Below are positions 13,764-35,662 of a stretch of DNA of 39,544 nucleotides, in pieces. Numbering within the stretch: position 1 is the first letter of the stretch; each line of letters opens with the position of its first letter. Under the pieces are notes generated by a model. The model had not been told where the DNA came from and did no database searches. It was given only the letters and a program-made list of their open reading frames with translations. The stretch spans positions 1-39,544 of the forward strand of contig NTJT01000008.1 of NCBI GenBank assembly GCA_002457605.1, written 5' to 3'. The position numbers were made by a program, and so were the translations under genes. This stretch comes from Marine Group II euryarchaeote MED-G34 (GTDB lineage Archaea > Thermoplasmatota > Poseidoniia > Poseidoniales > Thalassarchaeaceae).

Positions 13764-15374
13764 ATGCGAAATATGGCCAAACATCGTGCTGGAGACCGCC
13801 GAATAGTCAGTATAAGCATACCAGAAGACCTTGCTAAGAGGCTCGATCGCAGAGTAGGCAAGGGTCGAGAGAATGGTCGTTCCGCAACCATTTCAAGAAT
13901 GATCCAGGACTCTATTGATTCGGAGTCTGAGGAGCGCACGGGACAGCCAGCAGCAGCAGCTCGCAGCGCTAGGGCGAAACCCGATGCCATCAGGATAGAG
14001 AAGGACACGATGGGAGAGGTTGAGGTCCCAGCAGACAGGTATTACGGGGCTCAGACCGCACGATCCCTAGTCAACTTCGACATCGGGGATGACATCATGC
14101 CCCGTTCGGTCGTCCGCGCTTTCGGTGTTCTCAAGCAGGCCGCGGCCCAGACCAACGTCGATCTTGGCCAGATGGACCCTAACATCGGCTCGTTGATCTC
14201 AGCGGCCTGTGAAGAGGTCATCACCGGCTCTCTTGACGAGCACTTCCCTCTGAGGATCTGGCAGACAGGCTCGGGTACTCAGACCAACATGAACGCGAAT
14301 GAGGTGATAGCTAACCGAGCGATAGAAATCTCTGGAGGTGCCGTGGGCAGCAAGACCCCGGTGCACCCGAATGACCACGTCAACCGGGCCCAGTCGAGCA
14401 ATGACACCTTCCCAACGGCTATGCACATCGCTGCAGCCGAGGAAACACAACATCGATTGTTGCCCGCAGTACGTCATTTACGAGGTAATCTGGCAAACAA
14501 GGCGCGGGACTTCAAGAGTACGGTGAAGATTGGTAGGACCCACCTGATGGATGCAGTCCCCCTGACCCTAGGGCAGGAATTCAGCGGGTATGTCTCGATG
14601 CTCGACGCCGACATCACACGCATTGAGAGTGCCATGGGAGATTTGCTTGAACTGGCATTAGGAGGGACCGCGGTCGGGACCGGTCTAAACACACATCCCG
14701 AGTTCGCTGACACAGTAGCGGCACACATTGCGGACAACACTGGGATGTCTTTTGTCAGTGCTGACAACAAGTTTGCACAGTTGGCAGGTCACGACGCGCT
14801 GGTAGCCGCCTCGGGAGCGCTGAACACACTTGCAGCTTCTCTGATGAAGATAGCCAATGACATCAGATGGCTCGGTTCAGGTCCGAGATGCGGCTTTGGG
14901 GAACTCTCGCTCCCTGCTAACGAGCCTGGATCAAGCATAATGCCAGGCAAGGTCAACCCCACTCAGGCAGAGGCGATGACGATGGTCTGCTGCCAGGTTA
15001 TGGGCAACCACACCGCTATCTCAGTCGGAGGCAGTCAGGGCAATTTTGAACTCAATGTGTACAAACCGATGATAATTCACAACTTCCTGCACAGTGTGCG
15101 CCTGCTTTCGGACACCTGTCGCTCGTTCACGGACAAATGCGTGGTAGGGCTAGAGGCTAACGAGGACAGAATTGCAACTCATCTAGAGAATTCACTCATG
15201 CTGGTAACTGCACTCAATCCTCACATCGGCTATGACAACGCCGCGAAGATAGCCAAGAACGCGCACTTGAAAGGAACCACACTCAGGGAGAGCGCTCTCG
15301 AACTCGATCTACTGACAGATGAGCAATTCACCAAGTGGGTCAAGGCCGAGGACATGATTGGGCCACGAATCTGA
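13764..15374 (+). CDS. fumC: Class II fumarase with N-terminal ribbon-helix-helix domain
   Basis: 536 residues. Residues about 77-536 are a complete class II fumarase (fumarate plus water to malate, TCA cycle). They show [59 protein letters not shown] and the signature [13 protein letters not shown]. The first 55 residues are instead a CopG/Arc-like ribbon-helix-helix: [20 protein letters not shown], then [16 protein letters not shown]. An Ala/Gln/Ser-rich linker of about 20 residues joins the two in one unbroken frame. The next in-frame ATG in the enzyme part (MGEVEV) would remove the conserved RIEKDT start, so the fusion is not a mis-called start. RHH domains usually bind DNA as dimers; here it could regulate, or only help assembly. 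ATG at 13773 is an alternative start. Confidence 0.93.
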
Positions 15375-15613
15375 AGGAATTGGAAACCCTCAATCAATTA
15401 TTCAGGAGCGAAACGCTCCGCAAACACTGCAAAGAAATCATAGGGGCCGATTACAGGTGGGAGCAGCAGAGGTTTCCGCACATGGGGGAGCTTCCACCCC
15501 TGCATACTCCGCAGGGTCCCAGGTTTCCCTGGGGTCCCGGGTGTCCCCCGGGCCTCTCGGCCCGAGTTTCCCCGGGTAGACTCCTCCAGGACCTCTAGTG
15601 CCCTTTTGTCGCG

Positions 15614-15653
15614 CTCCGCTTCCTTCCCCTTCCTTTCGTCCAGGTCTCTCCAC
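15614..15653 (-). repeat. Purine-rich 40-bp repeat, copy A
   Basis: On the minus strand this begins GTGGAGAGACCTGGACGAAA and continues GGAAGGGGAAGGAAGCGGAG. It matches copy B at 39 of 40 positions. It lies inside the candidate structured RNA. Confidence 0.9.
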
Positions 15654-15699
15654 TTCGCTCATCTTCTCTCTCTAGGGGCGTTTCCCCCCCCTTCGCGTT

Positions 15700-15739
15700 C
15701 TCCGCTTCCTTCCCCTTCCTTTCGTCCAGTTCTCTCCAC
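15700..15739 (-). repeat. Purine-rich 40-bp repeat, copy B
   Basis: It differs from copy A at one base (AACTGG instead of ACCTGG). It begins 86 bp from copy A. On both copies the minus strand ends in GAAGCGGAG, whose GAAGCGG is complementary to CCGCTTC near the predicted 5' end of the candidate RNA. Confidence 0.9.
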
Positions 15740-15794
15740 GGTCCGATACAGCTTCCTCCACGGATCTCTCCGCCCTTGTCCACTCGTGTTTCCC

Positions 15795-15860
15795 TCCGCT
15801 TCCTTCCCGTTCCTTTCCCTTCCTTGCGTCCGGTTCCCGTCGGTCTCTCCACTTCGTTCC
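15795..15860 (-). repeat. Purine-rich repeat, diverged and expanded copy C
   Basis: It keeps the two ends of the unit, GTGGAGAGACC and GGAAGGAAGCGGAG on the minus strand, and the GGACGCAAGGAAGG core. Extra bases between these elements make it about 66 bp. Confidence 0.65.
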
Positions 15861-16005
15861 TCACACCGCTTCCAGGTTCGTTCTCCTCCCCTTTCCACGC
15901 GTATCTCCTCGGGATAGTACTCTGCCTCGGTTTTTGTTTTCCCCGTTGCCGGTTCGGTTACGTTTTCCTCAGCTTCCTCCTCCGTTCTCTCCGGTTTCCT
16001 TCCCC

Positions 16006-16038
16006 TTCCTTCCCCTTCCTTTCGTCCAGTTCTCTCCA
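16006..16038 (-). repeat. Purine-rich repeat, partial copy D
   Basis: 33 bp identical to the matching part of copy B, exactly 300 bp away from it. On the minus strand it starts TGGAGAGAACTGGACG. It is followed by an additional GGAAGG run in place of the AAGCGGAG end. Confidence 0.85.
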
Positions 16039-16236
16039 GTTCTCTCTACCTTCTTTCTCTTCGGTTCTCCCGTCGTCTTCCCGCCCACTTGGCGTTCCGA
16101 CTCTTCCCCGATCTCCTTCCGAATCTCGGGTTCCGCCGCCGCTCTCTCGCGGCTCGGTTTCTGTGGCCCGCAGGTCGCGCCGAAGCGCCCCCACACCACT
16201 CCAGAGAAGCGGCAAGGTTAGCAGGGAGACATGGGA

Positions 16237-16250
16237 TACATAAACCTTTC
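16237..16250 (-). promoter_or_regulatory. TATA/BRE-like promoter for the candidate RNA
   Basis: The minus strand reads GAAAGG then TTTATGTA, the arrangement of an archaeal BRE plus TATA box. It sits between the end of the beta-propeller gene and the purine-rich interval. A start about 25 bp downstream would be near 16215. A second AT-rich match (CTATATTC, 16253-16260) lies just upstream. Assigned by pattern only. Confidence 0.45.
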
Positions 16251-16309
16251 TTGAATATAGCCGCAGTCTACCGGAAACGAGGGTCTCAAATGTTAATTTC
16301 CACTGTATT

Positions 16310-17398
16310 TCATGTACCTCTGAGTCGCCTCAAACGCTCCATCAACCGGCTTCTACGCTCGTTATCGTCAGTCTCTTCCACAATCCCGCTGAGGCGCCTG
16401 GGAAGAACTGCTCCTTCAATCAAGTGAATTCTACCATTGGAGTCACCTAGGGCGATGTTGTCGCCTGTTGATTGGAGGTGCCTTATGCGACAATAGTGTC
16501 CTAGTTCTAGGATTATGGTTCCATCAGCAATCTGCAAGACAGTAACACCTCCTGACTCACCGTTCCACCTCGATCCCCAGATTCCGCTACCATTGGAGCC
16601 AGAGGGACCTATTGCAAGCGACTCTACAGCACCTAGTGCCGTATCTACCCAGCCGCGACTTGAGACAATCTCGCCTGATTCATGCCCGGAGAACCAGGTC
16701 TGTCCGGAACTACAGATTGCTCGAACAGGCGAAGACCGCTCCTCGCTCGGCTCTTCGACTGAGTCAGTCACCACACAGACCCTGCCATCCGAGTGTCCGA
16801 TTAGAAAGCGTCCCTCGAAACCGCACGCACCGGTGGTTACGGGGCTGCTTTCTCCTAAGAGACGATGCAATGCGCTCTCGCCACTTTGGATTCGAAGGAG
16901 CCCGCAACGTGGTCTACCAAGCCCCAGCAACACTCCCCCGTCTTCATGTAGGCCGAAGTACCAGGCGCGCTCGGAAAACGTCCATTGCTCCTGAAGCGAA
17001 CCCTCGTTGTCAAACATCCACACAGTCGACTCGGTGTAGTCTGAGATCTCAATCTCGTACACAGACGAAGCCGCCCAGATGACCTCTCCTTCAACTTGGA
17101 CAAAATCACTTGCCCCCTCCAGCGGACGACTCCAGATGATATCTCCAGTATTTGTGTCAAGGGCTATCAGGTCAGAAGAGGCGGCCGCGTAGACACGATC
17201 GTCAGTCACGGCGAGGTCACTGATTGGCCCATTCATTTCGATTCTCCAACGCTCGTTTCCAGAATCTACCGACCAGCAGGCTAGAACGCCCTCCTGCGAG
17301 CCTGCCAGCAAGTCATCACCATCAATCCTCAGAACGGTGCAGGCGCTGCCGAGCCCCCGCTCGAACGAAGAGACCGTCTCGAGTGTATGCACAGCCAT
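16310..17398 (-). CDS. Cytoplasmic beta-propeller protein (PQQ/WD40-like)
   Basis: 362 residues, ATG start, no signal peptide. The sequence is a series of beta-propeller blades with the recurring pattern of an Ala/Gly-rich strand, a short turn and a Trp-containing strand. Examples are DDLLAGSQEGVLACWSVDSG, DRVYAAASSDLIALDTNTG and GRFLIGHSDGRVCVV, giving about seven blades. The DTNTGDIIWSRPLEG segment is typical of PQQ-like repeats. The C-terminus is basic (RRSRLMERLRRLRG). Such proteins are binding scaffolds; the partner is unknown. It lies 46 bp downstream of the M32 carboxypeptidase gene on the same strand and probably shares its transcript. Downstream, the strand continues into the purine-rich gene-free interval. 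Confidence 0.75.
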   Translation of the reverse strand: MAVHTLETVSSFERGLGSACTVLRIDGDDLLAGSQEGVLACWSVDSGNERWRIEMNGPISDLAVTDDRVYAAASSDLIALDTNTGDIIWSRPLEGASDFVQVEGEVIWAASSVYEIEISDYTESTVWMFDNEGSLQEQWTFSERAWYFGLHEDGGVLLGLGRPRCGLLRIQSGESALHRLLGESSPVTTGACGFEGRFLIGHSDGRVCVVTDSVEEPSEERSSPVRAICSSGQTWFSGHESGEIVSSRGWVDTALGAVESLAIGPSGSNGSGIWGSRWNGESGGVTVLQIADGTIILELGHYCRIRHLQSTGDNIALGDSNGRIHLIEGAVLPRRLSGIVEETDDNERRSRLMERLRRLRGT

Positions 17399-29634: not shown

Positions 29635-30852
29635 GTGTTCGACCGATTCAAATCATGGCGAAAGCGGGAGGACGAGGGGACCGAGTGTCCGCTTTGCCAG
29701 CAACGCAATCACGAGGAAGCTGAGTCCTGCTCACGCTGCTCCTATCAGTTGCAAAAACCCTCTCACCAACAAGATGCGTCAGTGGGTGAAAAGATTACCA
29801 CCGACCTATTCGATGAGCTTCTAGAGGAAATCGAAGAAGACGATGACGGTGAAATAATCGATTGGAGTAATGCGGCCTTTACTATGGATGATGTTACTAT
29901 AGATGTCAAGCAATACGGCAAGGATGACTCAGTTGTCACGAAGCAGAAGCCAAGCTTCGCTCTCACCGATCTGCCTGGGCCCAGTGACGTTGTGGAGGAG
30001 GAATACGAACTCAAGCCCGAGGACGCCCCCGAGTTCGTCACCAAGTTCGAGGTTCCGGAGGCCGAGGTCGAACCACTCGAGGTCATCGAGGCCCATCAGA
30101 TAGAGTTGATTCAGCCGACTGCGGAAGCTCCTGAGAATGTTGATATCATCTCCGCCAGTGAGGTGCCTGACACTAACGGAGTTGCACCAGAGTCTGTGAG
30201 TGAACCCGAACCAGAACCCGAACCAGAACCCGAACCAGAACCCGAACCAGAACCCGATGAGCCAAGCCTCTCTGATTTTACAGTCGACCAGTTGAAGGCA
30301 ATGGCCAGTGAGCGTGGGCTTTCGGGCTACTCCAAACTTAAGAAATCCGAAATCATAACACTACTTGAGACCGAGCCCGAGACCGAGGGAGAGGCCGAGA
30401 CCGAGGCCGAAATCCCACCTCCTCCAACTGACTTACCTGCCCCTCCGACCCCTCCCACACTACCCTCTCCACCTGAAGTCGAAGAGGACCAAGAGCCGAT
30501 GCCCATCCCACCTCCTCCTGTTATCCCCTCAATCCCACAGATTCCAGAGCCCTCGGAGACTCCGAATTATTGGCCGTGGTCACAACAGGAGAAATGGTCA
30601 GATCGCAAAGTTGCCGGACAGGTGAAGGCTGCGATGGAGGCAGCTCGTTCAAGAGACATAGCACAGGCTACCGTAATTATCGACGAGGTCGGCCCGCACC
30701 TCGGTGACCGTTCCAAACTAATCTATCCAATTGGTGCCCTGCTCCAGCGTATAGGGCGTGGCAAAGCCGTCGACAATTTACTCACGTCTTCCTTAAGCGC
30801 ATTACCGAATGACCCCAATGTGGCCACTGCCAAGGCGAAATTACGACCCTGA
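29635..30852 (+). CDS. Acidic zinc-ribbon protein with SAP-like domain
   Basis: 405 residues from a GTG (MFDRFKSWRKRED). A zinc ribbon comes first: CPLC then CSRC, residues about 18-35. A long acidic, Pro/Glu-rich region follows, including a pure (Glu-Pro)n run near residues 190-207. Then comes a SAP or Rho-N-like helical domain (DFTVDQLKAMASERGLSGYS, ending ITLLE) around residues 213-246. A proline-rich stretch (PPPPTDLPAPPTPP) leads to a C-terminal helical domain of about 90 residues (VAGQVKAAMEAARSRDIAQA), possibly a TPR-like module. No membrane segment. I do not recognise the family. The layout suggests a scaffold that binds nucleic acid or protein. TATA-like ATTATACG lies about 50 bp upstream, near 29587. 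Confidence 0.72.
   Translation: MFDRFKSWRKREDEGTECPLCQQRNHEEAESCSRCSYQLQKPSHQQDASVGEKITTDLFDELLEEIEEDDDGEIIDWSNAAFTMDDVTIDVKQYGKDDSVVTKQKPSFALTDLPGPSDVVEEEYELKPEDAPEFVTKFEVPEAEVEPLEVIEAHQIELIQPTAEAPENVDIISASEVPDTNGVAPESVSEPEPEPEPEPEPEPEPEPDEPSLSDFTVDQLKAMASERGLSGYSKLKKSEIITLLETEPETEGEAETEAEIPPPPTDLPAPPTPPTLPSPPEVEEDQEPMPIPPPPVIPSIPQIPEPSETPNYWPWSQQEKWSDRKVAGQVKAAMEAARSRDIAQATVIIDEVGPHLGDRSKLIYPIGALLQRIGRGKAVDNLLTSSLSALPNDPNVATAKAKLRP
30202..30257 (+). repeat. 12-bp tandem repeat encoding Glu-Pro
   Basis: Four perfect copies of GAACCCGAACCA, then a partial fifth, encode an uninterrupted Glu-Pro run. The strict 12-bp period, with alternating CCC and CCA proline codons, indicates slippage-type expansion, so its length may vary between strains. 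Confidence 0.9.
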
Positions 30853-34225: not shown

Positions 34226-35662
34226 TCAGAATCCGCCGCCGCCGCCACCGCCACCGCCGCCGCCACCGCCGCCGAAGCCGCCGCCGCCACCGCCGCTGCT
34301 AGAACTGGCAGCCGCCGCCGCTCGTTCTGCACTAGTGGATCCTGCAGTATCTCTGAAACTTACACTACTGCCGGCGTAACTCCAGTGATAGTGCGAATGG
34401 TCGTGGCTGTAATCCCCTGAACCCCAGTCCTCAGTGTCCATTGAGAAGAAATCCATCCCATCAACAAGCTGCATTTGCTCTCCTAGATCCTTTTCGACCT
34501 TCGCCATCACTCCACCTCTATTGACGATAGATGAGCCGATTACAAGCACGAGGGGCAAACCGAAACAACACCCAAAGAAACCGAGTCCGGGTTCGGACGA
34601 ACCCCAGACAGTGTTTCCCACAACCGTAATTATTCCGAAAATATTGTAATTCCAGTTATAGTAAAGAGAGATACCAAGGGAATACAGAATTAGGAAAGTA
34701 ATTACAGAAATTATGAACCCTAGGCTGTATACTCCCCCAGCGGATTCCGCAAAGTCTTCCTCAAGTTGTTCCGCGTTTCTGATGTTCTTCATCTCGGCTT
34801 CGTACTTCTCCAGGCTCATTTCGAAATCACTACCGCCTAGGATTTTGTCTAGCTTCCTGAAGGTCTTGACCATCGGGTCACCCATCTCGTCCCCGATCAC
34901 CCCATTCCATTTATTGAGCCGCTCAACCTGCTTCTCAGTCAATCCATCCTCCTTGGAAACGACGATGTTCGAGATGATGGCGCGATTAATCGCGGCGATG
35001 TCTAGAAAAGCACTTGGCGCAGCATCTTCCCACGCCTTCAAGTTAGGTGTGTGAGCTCGCTTAGCTCGGAAAGTAAACACACCCAATACCAAAACCAAGA
35101 GAATTGGTAATGCACCCATCCACATCCATGAATTCCAGTTGAAACCCTCTCCTTTCAGCACCGGCTCCATCCCGTTGACTGCTGCAAGCAACCCCTCGTA
35201 CCAGAGGTCGTCTCCAAGCAGGGGCTTGACGTCGTTGTCGAACACGGACTGAACGTAAGCATCCCTATTCTCTCCGGCATAGCCGCCTCCTAGTTCCGTC
35301 CAGAAACGCCGATCACCTTCAGACATGAACACCAGGATGGCTTTGTCTTGACCCGCATCGTCCATTATTCCATATTCATCGAATGCGAAATTAGCATATT
35401 CTTCTTCACCCCAACCATATGCCCCTTGGCCCCCGAATGATTCTATGGTCAGAACTACAATCGGTCTGCCGGTCTCGAGATACAGGTCGTTACAGACCAT
35501 ATTCAACCAGTCGAACTCAGAGGGAGAAAGGACGTTAGCCGCGTCAATGACCCAGACACCGTCCTCAGCGGGTGCTGGTGGAACTGTGGCAGCCGCTTGG
35601 ACCGATAGAGGAGAGAACAGAACTACTATGATGACGGCAAGTACAACACCACGGGATTTCAT
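34226..35662 (-). CDS. TPM-domain membrane protein with poly-glycine tail
   Basis: 478 residues. A signal peptide is clear (core VVLAVIIVVLFSPLSVQAAA). Residues about 35-165 are a TPM domain (DUF477/YgcG-like): VIDAANVLSPSEFDWLN, IVVLTIESFGG, KAILVFMSEGDRRFWTELGGGY. A transmembrane helix follows (ALPILLVLVLGVFTF), a charged cytoplasmic part, and two further helices (LGFIISVITFLILYSLGISL and FFGCCFGLPLVLVIGSSI). A His-rich YSHDHSHYHW stretch and a Ser/Ala run then lead into about 20 glycines broken only by Phe. TPM proteins have been linked to photosystem repair in plants and to unassigned envelope roles in bacteria. The Gly-rich end is typical of YgcG-like members. Confidence 0.85.
   Translation of the reverse strand: MKSRGVVLAVIIVVLFSPLSVQAAATVPPAPAEDGVWVIDAANVLSPSEFDWLNMVCNDLYLETGRPIVVLTIESFGGQGAYGWGEEEYANFAFDEYGIMDDAGQDKAILVFMSEGDRRFWTELGGGYAGENRDAYVQSVFDNDVKPLLGDDLWYEGLLAAVNGMEPVLKGEGFNWNSWMWMGALPILLVLVLGVFTFRAKRAHTPNLKAWEDAAPSAFLDIAAINRAIISNIVVSKEDGLTEKQVERLNKWNGVIGDEMGDPMVKTFRKLDKILGGSDFEMSLEKYEAEMKNIRNAEQLEEDFAESAGGVYSLGFIISVITFLILYSLGISLYYNWNYNIFGIITVVGNTVWGSSEPGLGFFGCCFGLPLVLVIGSSIVNRGGVMAKVEKDLGEQMQLVDGMDFFSMDTEDWGSGDYSHDHSHYHWSYAGSSVSFRDTAGSTSAERAAAAASSSSGGGGGGFGGGGGGGGGGGGGGF
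34232..34298. repeat. GC-rich trinucleotide tract coding poly-glycine
   Basis: Repeated CCG/CCA/GCC-type triplets on the plus strand encode the C-terminal glycine run of the TPM protein on the minus strand. The triplet regularity makes it prone to slippage and assembly error. Confidence 0.85.

Follow-up and report, generated by a model that had tools for sequence, protein, structure and literature searches.

The window analysed here comprises 39,544 nt of contig NTJT01000008.1 from the Marine Group II euryarchaeote MED-G34 and encodes, among other proteins, the large subunit of DNA polymerase D. The stop codons of fumC (15374) and of a gene for a PQQ-type beta-propeller protein (16310) enclose 935 nt without a credible gene, in agreement with a first-pass annotation made from the letters alone, which had marked the interval as gene-free and proposed one long, structured, non-coding minus-strand transcript of no recognised family running from about 16216 to about 15400. 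The features of the locus are collected in Table 1. Homologues were compared within the window's own family (f1), which we take to be Thalassarchaeaceae (MGIIb), and its sister (f2), presumably Poseidoniaceae (MGIIa), the latter name by inference. Elsewhere in the window tandem repeats lie inside long reading frames, at 30202-30257 (12-nt unit, GAACCCGAACCA) and at 34233-34296 (CCG triplets).

Table 1. Features at the RNA locus, in positions of the window.
Feature	Position	Strand	Remarks
fumC	13764..15374	plus	converges on the RNA gene; not beside it in genus g21 (L216/L217)
Hairpin GGAGCGAAACGCTCC	15405..15419	unassigned	downstream of the conserved RNA; in only some relatives
Predicted RNA gene	15444..16217	minus	from homologues and covariation; predicted 5' end 16215-16218, conserved 3' limit ~15444
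3' hairpin, UGCGGAG-long stem-CUCCCA	15458..15513	minus	recognisable in both families
Stem CCGGGG..CCCGG with apical hairpin	15518..15575	minus	helices 41-43; 8 compensatory pairs, one significant
Four purine-rich repeat units	15601..16039	minus	15601-15653, 15687-15739, 15781-15833, 15987-16039
Hairpin ACGCGAAGGGGGGGGAAACGCCCCUAGAGAGA	15667..15698	minus	helices 35-37
Long-range helix, GAUAC (15901-15905) with GUAUC (15745-15749)	15745..15905	minus	encloses hairpin 15756-15778
Stem-loop GUCGGAACGCCAAGUGGGCGGGAAGAC	16075..16101	minus	helices 11-12; 7 pairs with compensatory change
Hairpin CCGAGAUUCGGAAGGAGAUCGG	16108..16129	minus	helices 8-9; 5 compensatory pairs, one significant against the tree null
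Hairpin ACCGAGCCGCGAGAGAGCGGCGGC	16135..16158	minus	helix 7; 3 pairs with compensatory change
GGGCC, 5' strand of closing helix	16165..16169	minus	pairs with GCCC at 15444-15447; 91-97% of cells paired
Hairpin H2, UUCG loop	16170..16194	minus	segment up to 97% shared with paralogue L241
Hairpin H1, GCCGCUUC-UCU-GGAGUGGU	16195..16213	minus	97.9% of cells paired order-wide; 4 pairs with compensatory change
BRE/TATA element GAAAGGTTTA	16241..16250	minus	precedes the conserved 5' end by ~25-30 nt
Upstream element AGTGGAAA-N19/20-TTTCC	16273..16304	minus	near-fixed spacing
Beta-propeller gene (PQQ-type)	16310..17398	minus	lies upstream of the RNA in f1 and f2; conserved basic C-terminal tail

The two strands of the interval differ clearly. 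Plus-strand skews of about -0.3 to -0.5 (GC) and -0.6 to -0.8 (AT) bear out the earlier remark that the minus strand is purine-rich, and when folding was compared with shuffled sequences the minus strand gave z -2.85 and the plus strand z -0.06. Stable tetraloops had been noted on one strand only, and GNRA/UNCG hairpins with stems of at least 4 bp are indeed found six times on the minus and never on the plus strand of the window, while the RNA strand of 40 homologues has 165 of them (35.6±6.2 in shuffles) and the opposite strand 12 (25.5±5 in shuffles). Between relatives that are 92-96% identical, the gaps are mostly not multiples of three, and therefore no reading frame is kept in the RNA.

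Covariation was analysed in alignment A3 (40 f1 sequences; RNAalifold structure of 158 pairs) and in an independent alignment of 20 sequences from the sister-family genus g13 (mean identity 73%). An initial test on all column pairs lacked power and gave no pair at E<0.05; the two-set test took its place. In A3 89.6% of the cells were paired, a share in which, above all other measures, a structure derived from the same alignment is favoured over its controls. Ninety-two pairs changed on both sides, and there were 635 compensatory cells as compared to 189±14 in shuffled and 63-124 in slid structures. With a null model that replays the substitutions on a tree, 15 of the 158 pairs reached E<0.05 (0-1 when slid), and 16 of the best 60 among 242,556 column pairs fell in the structure. 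The g13 alignment gave 10 significant pairs out of 229 (none when slid), 18 of the top 60 in the structure, and 116 pairs with compensatory change against 34-59 in slid structures. Since the result was replicated in two families and the ranking included all column pairs, we consider the bias of alignment-derived structures to be answered. Hairpins H1 and H2 alone showed 46 compensatory cells order-wide (12.4±2.9 expected). In Watson-Crick-dominated pairs departures to G-U outnumbered those to A-C (266 vs 139), as expected for a minus-strand RNA and with the same caveat on alignment-derived structures. The check proposed with the first-pass annotation, covariation among aligned homologous intervals next to fumC, thus gave strong compensatory changes in two independent alignments. 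As the covarying helices extend over the whole length, the remainder beyond the 5' module (promoter, H1 and H2) is under selection as well.

The predicted architecture consists of conserved, folded 5' and 3' ends and a fast-changing, hairpin-rich middle. In the GGGCC/GCCC helix that would close the molecule the changes are only one-sided, mostly from G-C to G-U. The repeat units of the middle contain CCGGAC-GNAA-GGAAGG-like hairpins and differ in copy number among species, and the long-range helix together with its enclosed hairpin (helices 23 and 32) has six pairs with compensatory change. A long-range pairing of the 5' CCGCTTC with the GAAGCGG of the repeats had been suggested; the letters are there, but covariation instead pairs CCGCUUC with the adjacent GGAGUGG in H1. 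Three g9 loci (L194, L198, L203) have the 3' module duplicated inside the RNA, which gives intervals of ~1,450-1,490 nt.

Upstream of H1 the element GAAAGGTTTA, recognised earlier as TATA/BRE-like, is conserved in position and sequence (A3 and A4) with near-fixed spacing, and variants of it occur in all genera read. The upstream element (AGTGGAAA-N18-21-TTTCC) is locus-specific in the genus, with eight of nine exact matches in 13 congeneric genomes at the RNA locus; it was not seen at the RNase P and SRP loci inspected, and was rejected as a general promoter element of stable RNAs. Together the two elements mark the RNA's own predicted promoter. From the position of the TATA box we infer a 5' end at ~16217, so the start near 16216 given in the first-pass annotation agrees with the TATA spacing, while its end near 15400 lies beyond the conserved 3' limit; the true 3' end is probably somewhere between 15444 and ~15400. 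The hairpin at 15405-15419 (GGAGCG-AAA/UUU-CGCTCC), regarded before as the RNA's own end, lies outside the conserved part and could equally serve fumC. A stretch like TAATCAATCATTGCGG at 15400-15425 is conserved beyond the 3' hairpin in several genera, possibly as a terminator or as part of the RNA 3' end; a U-rich terminator after the 3' hairpin was not above shuffles. The predicted RNA measures ~775-780 nt in the window and ~600-1,450 nt between genera. Taken together, covariation in two alignments, separate promoter signals and the lack of a kept frame make it almost certain that the minus-strand interval is a real structured RNA gene, as had been proposed, with transcription itself deduced from sequence.

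A BLAST search with 15380-16240 (minus strand) gave matches in 11 of 13 congeners and 95 of 148 family members, and in the genera it missed (g2, g4, g9 and g10) homologues were found at the same place, in intervals of 700-1,490 nt. The 41 loci read show, as far as their contigs reach, one and the same succession of genes: peptidase M32 - propeller - RNA - fumC - cyclophilin. Sister-family homologues were located by a TATA-plus-hairpin pattern; in g13, g21 and g22 they directly follow the propeller gene, and in g21 (L216 and L217) fumC is not beside the RNA. A model from seven genera (R1) missed diverged homologues at genome scale, and these were recovered by an order-wide model built from 41 sequences of both families (R3). 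With R3 the RNA was found in 127 of 148 f1 genomes, covering all 11 genera, and as strong matches in 26 f2 genomes (21 in g13, three in g21 and two in g22), which makes 153 genomes in all. Weak matches were seen in g13 (two) and in g17 and g20 (three, E 0.004-0.1), with no convincing match elsewhere in f2 or in genomes of the class that fall outside the order. A pattern taken from the RNA 3' end has 46 matches in GTDB, each of them either named as Thalassarchaeaceae, Poseidoniales or Marine Group II or listed simply as a Euryarchaeota MAG. The RNA is thus a Poseidoniales (Marine Group II) RNA. The f1 absences inspected are missing or broken assemblies, three genomes (G006, G011, G020) being without any true fumC match and a fourth (G022) having a contig that ends inside the RNA, and absence in f1 therefore reflects at least partly assembly gaps. 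The first-pass annotation would have been contradicted by close relatives with fumC and the propeller gene directly adjacent; this arrangement, with the two genes adjoining within a few bases, was found only in some sister-family genera (g12, L207; g20, L208). Several sister-family genera are without detected RNA and therefore it is not essential to the order. A FumC tree, weak at its deep nodes, did not separate an RNA ancestral to the order from one that has moved.

As to function, we favour, with not quite an even chance, a stand-alone, independently transcribed and trans-acting RNA whose role would be that of a structural scaffold comparable to OLE, GOLLD and ROOL. The 5'-3' closing helix would hold a compact body, to which the GNRA-capped purine-rich repeats, variable in number, would add arms, and the RNA may form a particle by self-association or in combination with proteins. 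In both families the gene beside the RNA encodes the propeller protein, whose basic tail is conserved and which we take as no more than a candidate partner; since its gene persists in genera without adjacent RNA (L207, L208, L211, L212), it would not be an obligate one. Its basic C-terminal motif, of the type LRxRLRxLR, is seen in nearly all genera of both families, and the remainder of the protein diverges to ~30% identity.

Alternatively, and possible if rather unlikely, the molecule is a trans-acting regulatory RNA (6S-like, or sequestering ribosomes or proteins), in which the 5' module would be active and the rest a carrier, perhaps processed to pieces such as Tan1, an abundant Marine Group II RNA (PMC5069720). 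No other part is shared as widely as the 5' module, which is found without the remainder in two other places. On a chromosomal island of one g11 genome (L241) the TATA box is present together with a lengthened H1 and an H2 whose identity reaches 97% over 37 nt; a different, shorter sequence follows, and the locus has no propeller gene. This paralogous short RNA (L241:2937-3500) adjoins a small minus-strand gene without Pfam match, and nearby are moaA-like and purM-like genes and, two genes on, a weak SprT-like match. A second match in G138 (L240) was rejected as a paralogue, since it is the same locus again, truncated where its contig ends. The other place is the 72-kb magrovirus-like IMG/VR contig L245 (IMGVR_UViG_3300007514_000005), where the TATA box, H1 and part of H2 lie at L245:1533-1604 (contig position ~64147) and R3 scores 42.5 bits (E 9e-13 in 16 kb, 3.9e-12 over the whole contig). 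Covarying helices across the whole length speak against a carrier, as the remainder too is under selection.

Contig L245 encodes a family B polymerase (PolB), a clamp loader, cpn60 and a tail protein, all reported for magroviruses (PMC10768690). An RNA of virus-host conflict, either a host defence or a host RNA exploited by viruses, whose 5' module magroviruses mimic, would account for this match, but we consider it improbable: a single viral contig is involved, the related virus L251 is without the RNA in the stretch examined, and the shared part is short and includes the promoter letters. We regard the L245 segment as real though short, and functional mimicry as putative. The gene-poor surroundings of the viral segment have further BRE/TATA-like elements at ~2457 and ~5753, each followed by foldable sequence.

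In the loci that were read the RNA follows the propeller gene immediately and in the same orientation, as it would if it were a long, structured 3' UTR of the propeller mRNA, yet that reading is very improbable given the conserved BRE/TATA at a near-fixed distance from a conserved 5' end, the TATA box kept at L241, where the propeller gene is missing, and in the viral copy, and the propeller genes that exist without the RNA. More doubtful still is a role in cis for fumC, as an antisense or terminator element; in nearly every locus read the RNA and fumC converge, and the hairpin at 15405-15419 would fit such a role, but the covariation is internal to the RNA, and a general antisense role is contradicted by the g21 loci that have the RNA with no fumC beside it. 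A non-functional purine-rich low-complexity spacer or an overlooked coding gene, to which the repeats and, on the opposite strand, long frames without stops (180 aa on average) might point, has next to no chance, contradicted as it is by the two-set covariation, the strand-specific tetraloops and the frame-breaking indels.

Returning to the scaffold RNA, we tentatively extend it to an ancestral Marine Group II RNA particle, apparently a new ornate class in archaea, whose 5' module, serving in assembly or recognition, would have been copied by magroviruses and by the short paralogue, so that virus and host may compete for or share an RNA machine of novel function. Large ornate RNAs (OLE, GOLLD and ROOL) have been reported in bacteria and bacteriophages. 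A comparable RNA across Poseidoniales, abundant archaea of the surface ocean, adds a separate example from a second domain of life, offering clear boundaries, a promoter and a structure model, with a possible viral copy as a functional hint. It also shows that a long RNA conserved in a dominant marine lineage is missing from Rfam.

No relevant Rfam match was obtained in the window, in 11 homologue loci or at the viral locus, at gathering thresholds or permissively (E<5; E<1 for diverged homologues), which upholds the view that the RNA belongs to no recognised family; the covariance models of OLE, GOLLD and ROOL likewise do not match it. RNaseP_arch (RF00373) and Archaea_SRP (RF01857) are also large structured archaeal RNAs, but the RNA is neither in disguise: RF00373 matches lie at other loci (G000:C29), and RF01857 matches elsewhere in G001 and G009, both of which also carry the RNA. 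OLE, like our RNA, is large (~600 nt), with an elaborate covarying fold, a stand-alone chromosomal gene and a biochemical role unknown in both cases. The OLE gene adjoins that of its protein partner OapA, and our RNA differs in its archaeal host, its more variable length and, apparently, its flanking genes (by Pfam propeller, fumC, M32 and cyclophilin), which do not seem to be those associated with OLE. GOLLD, found in marine samples, resembles it in having several hundred nt with a conserved end and a variable remainder, but here both ends are conserved and the chromosomal place is fixed in the loci read. GOLLD is borne by phages and prophages, often near tRNA islands; no tRNA lies near the RNA in the window or in eight loci. 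ROOL is similar in size and hairpin-rich architecture, and unlike our RNA is found in bacterial phages and prophages. Among Marine Group II RNAs of unknown function our literature search found only Tan1 (Thalassoarchaea ncRNA 1; PMC5069720), which shares the archaeal lineage and differs in size, with 229 nt as reported; it could be a fragment of the RNA described here. OLE, ROOL and GOLLD form RNA-only oligomers (PMC12286853).
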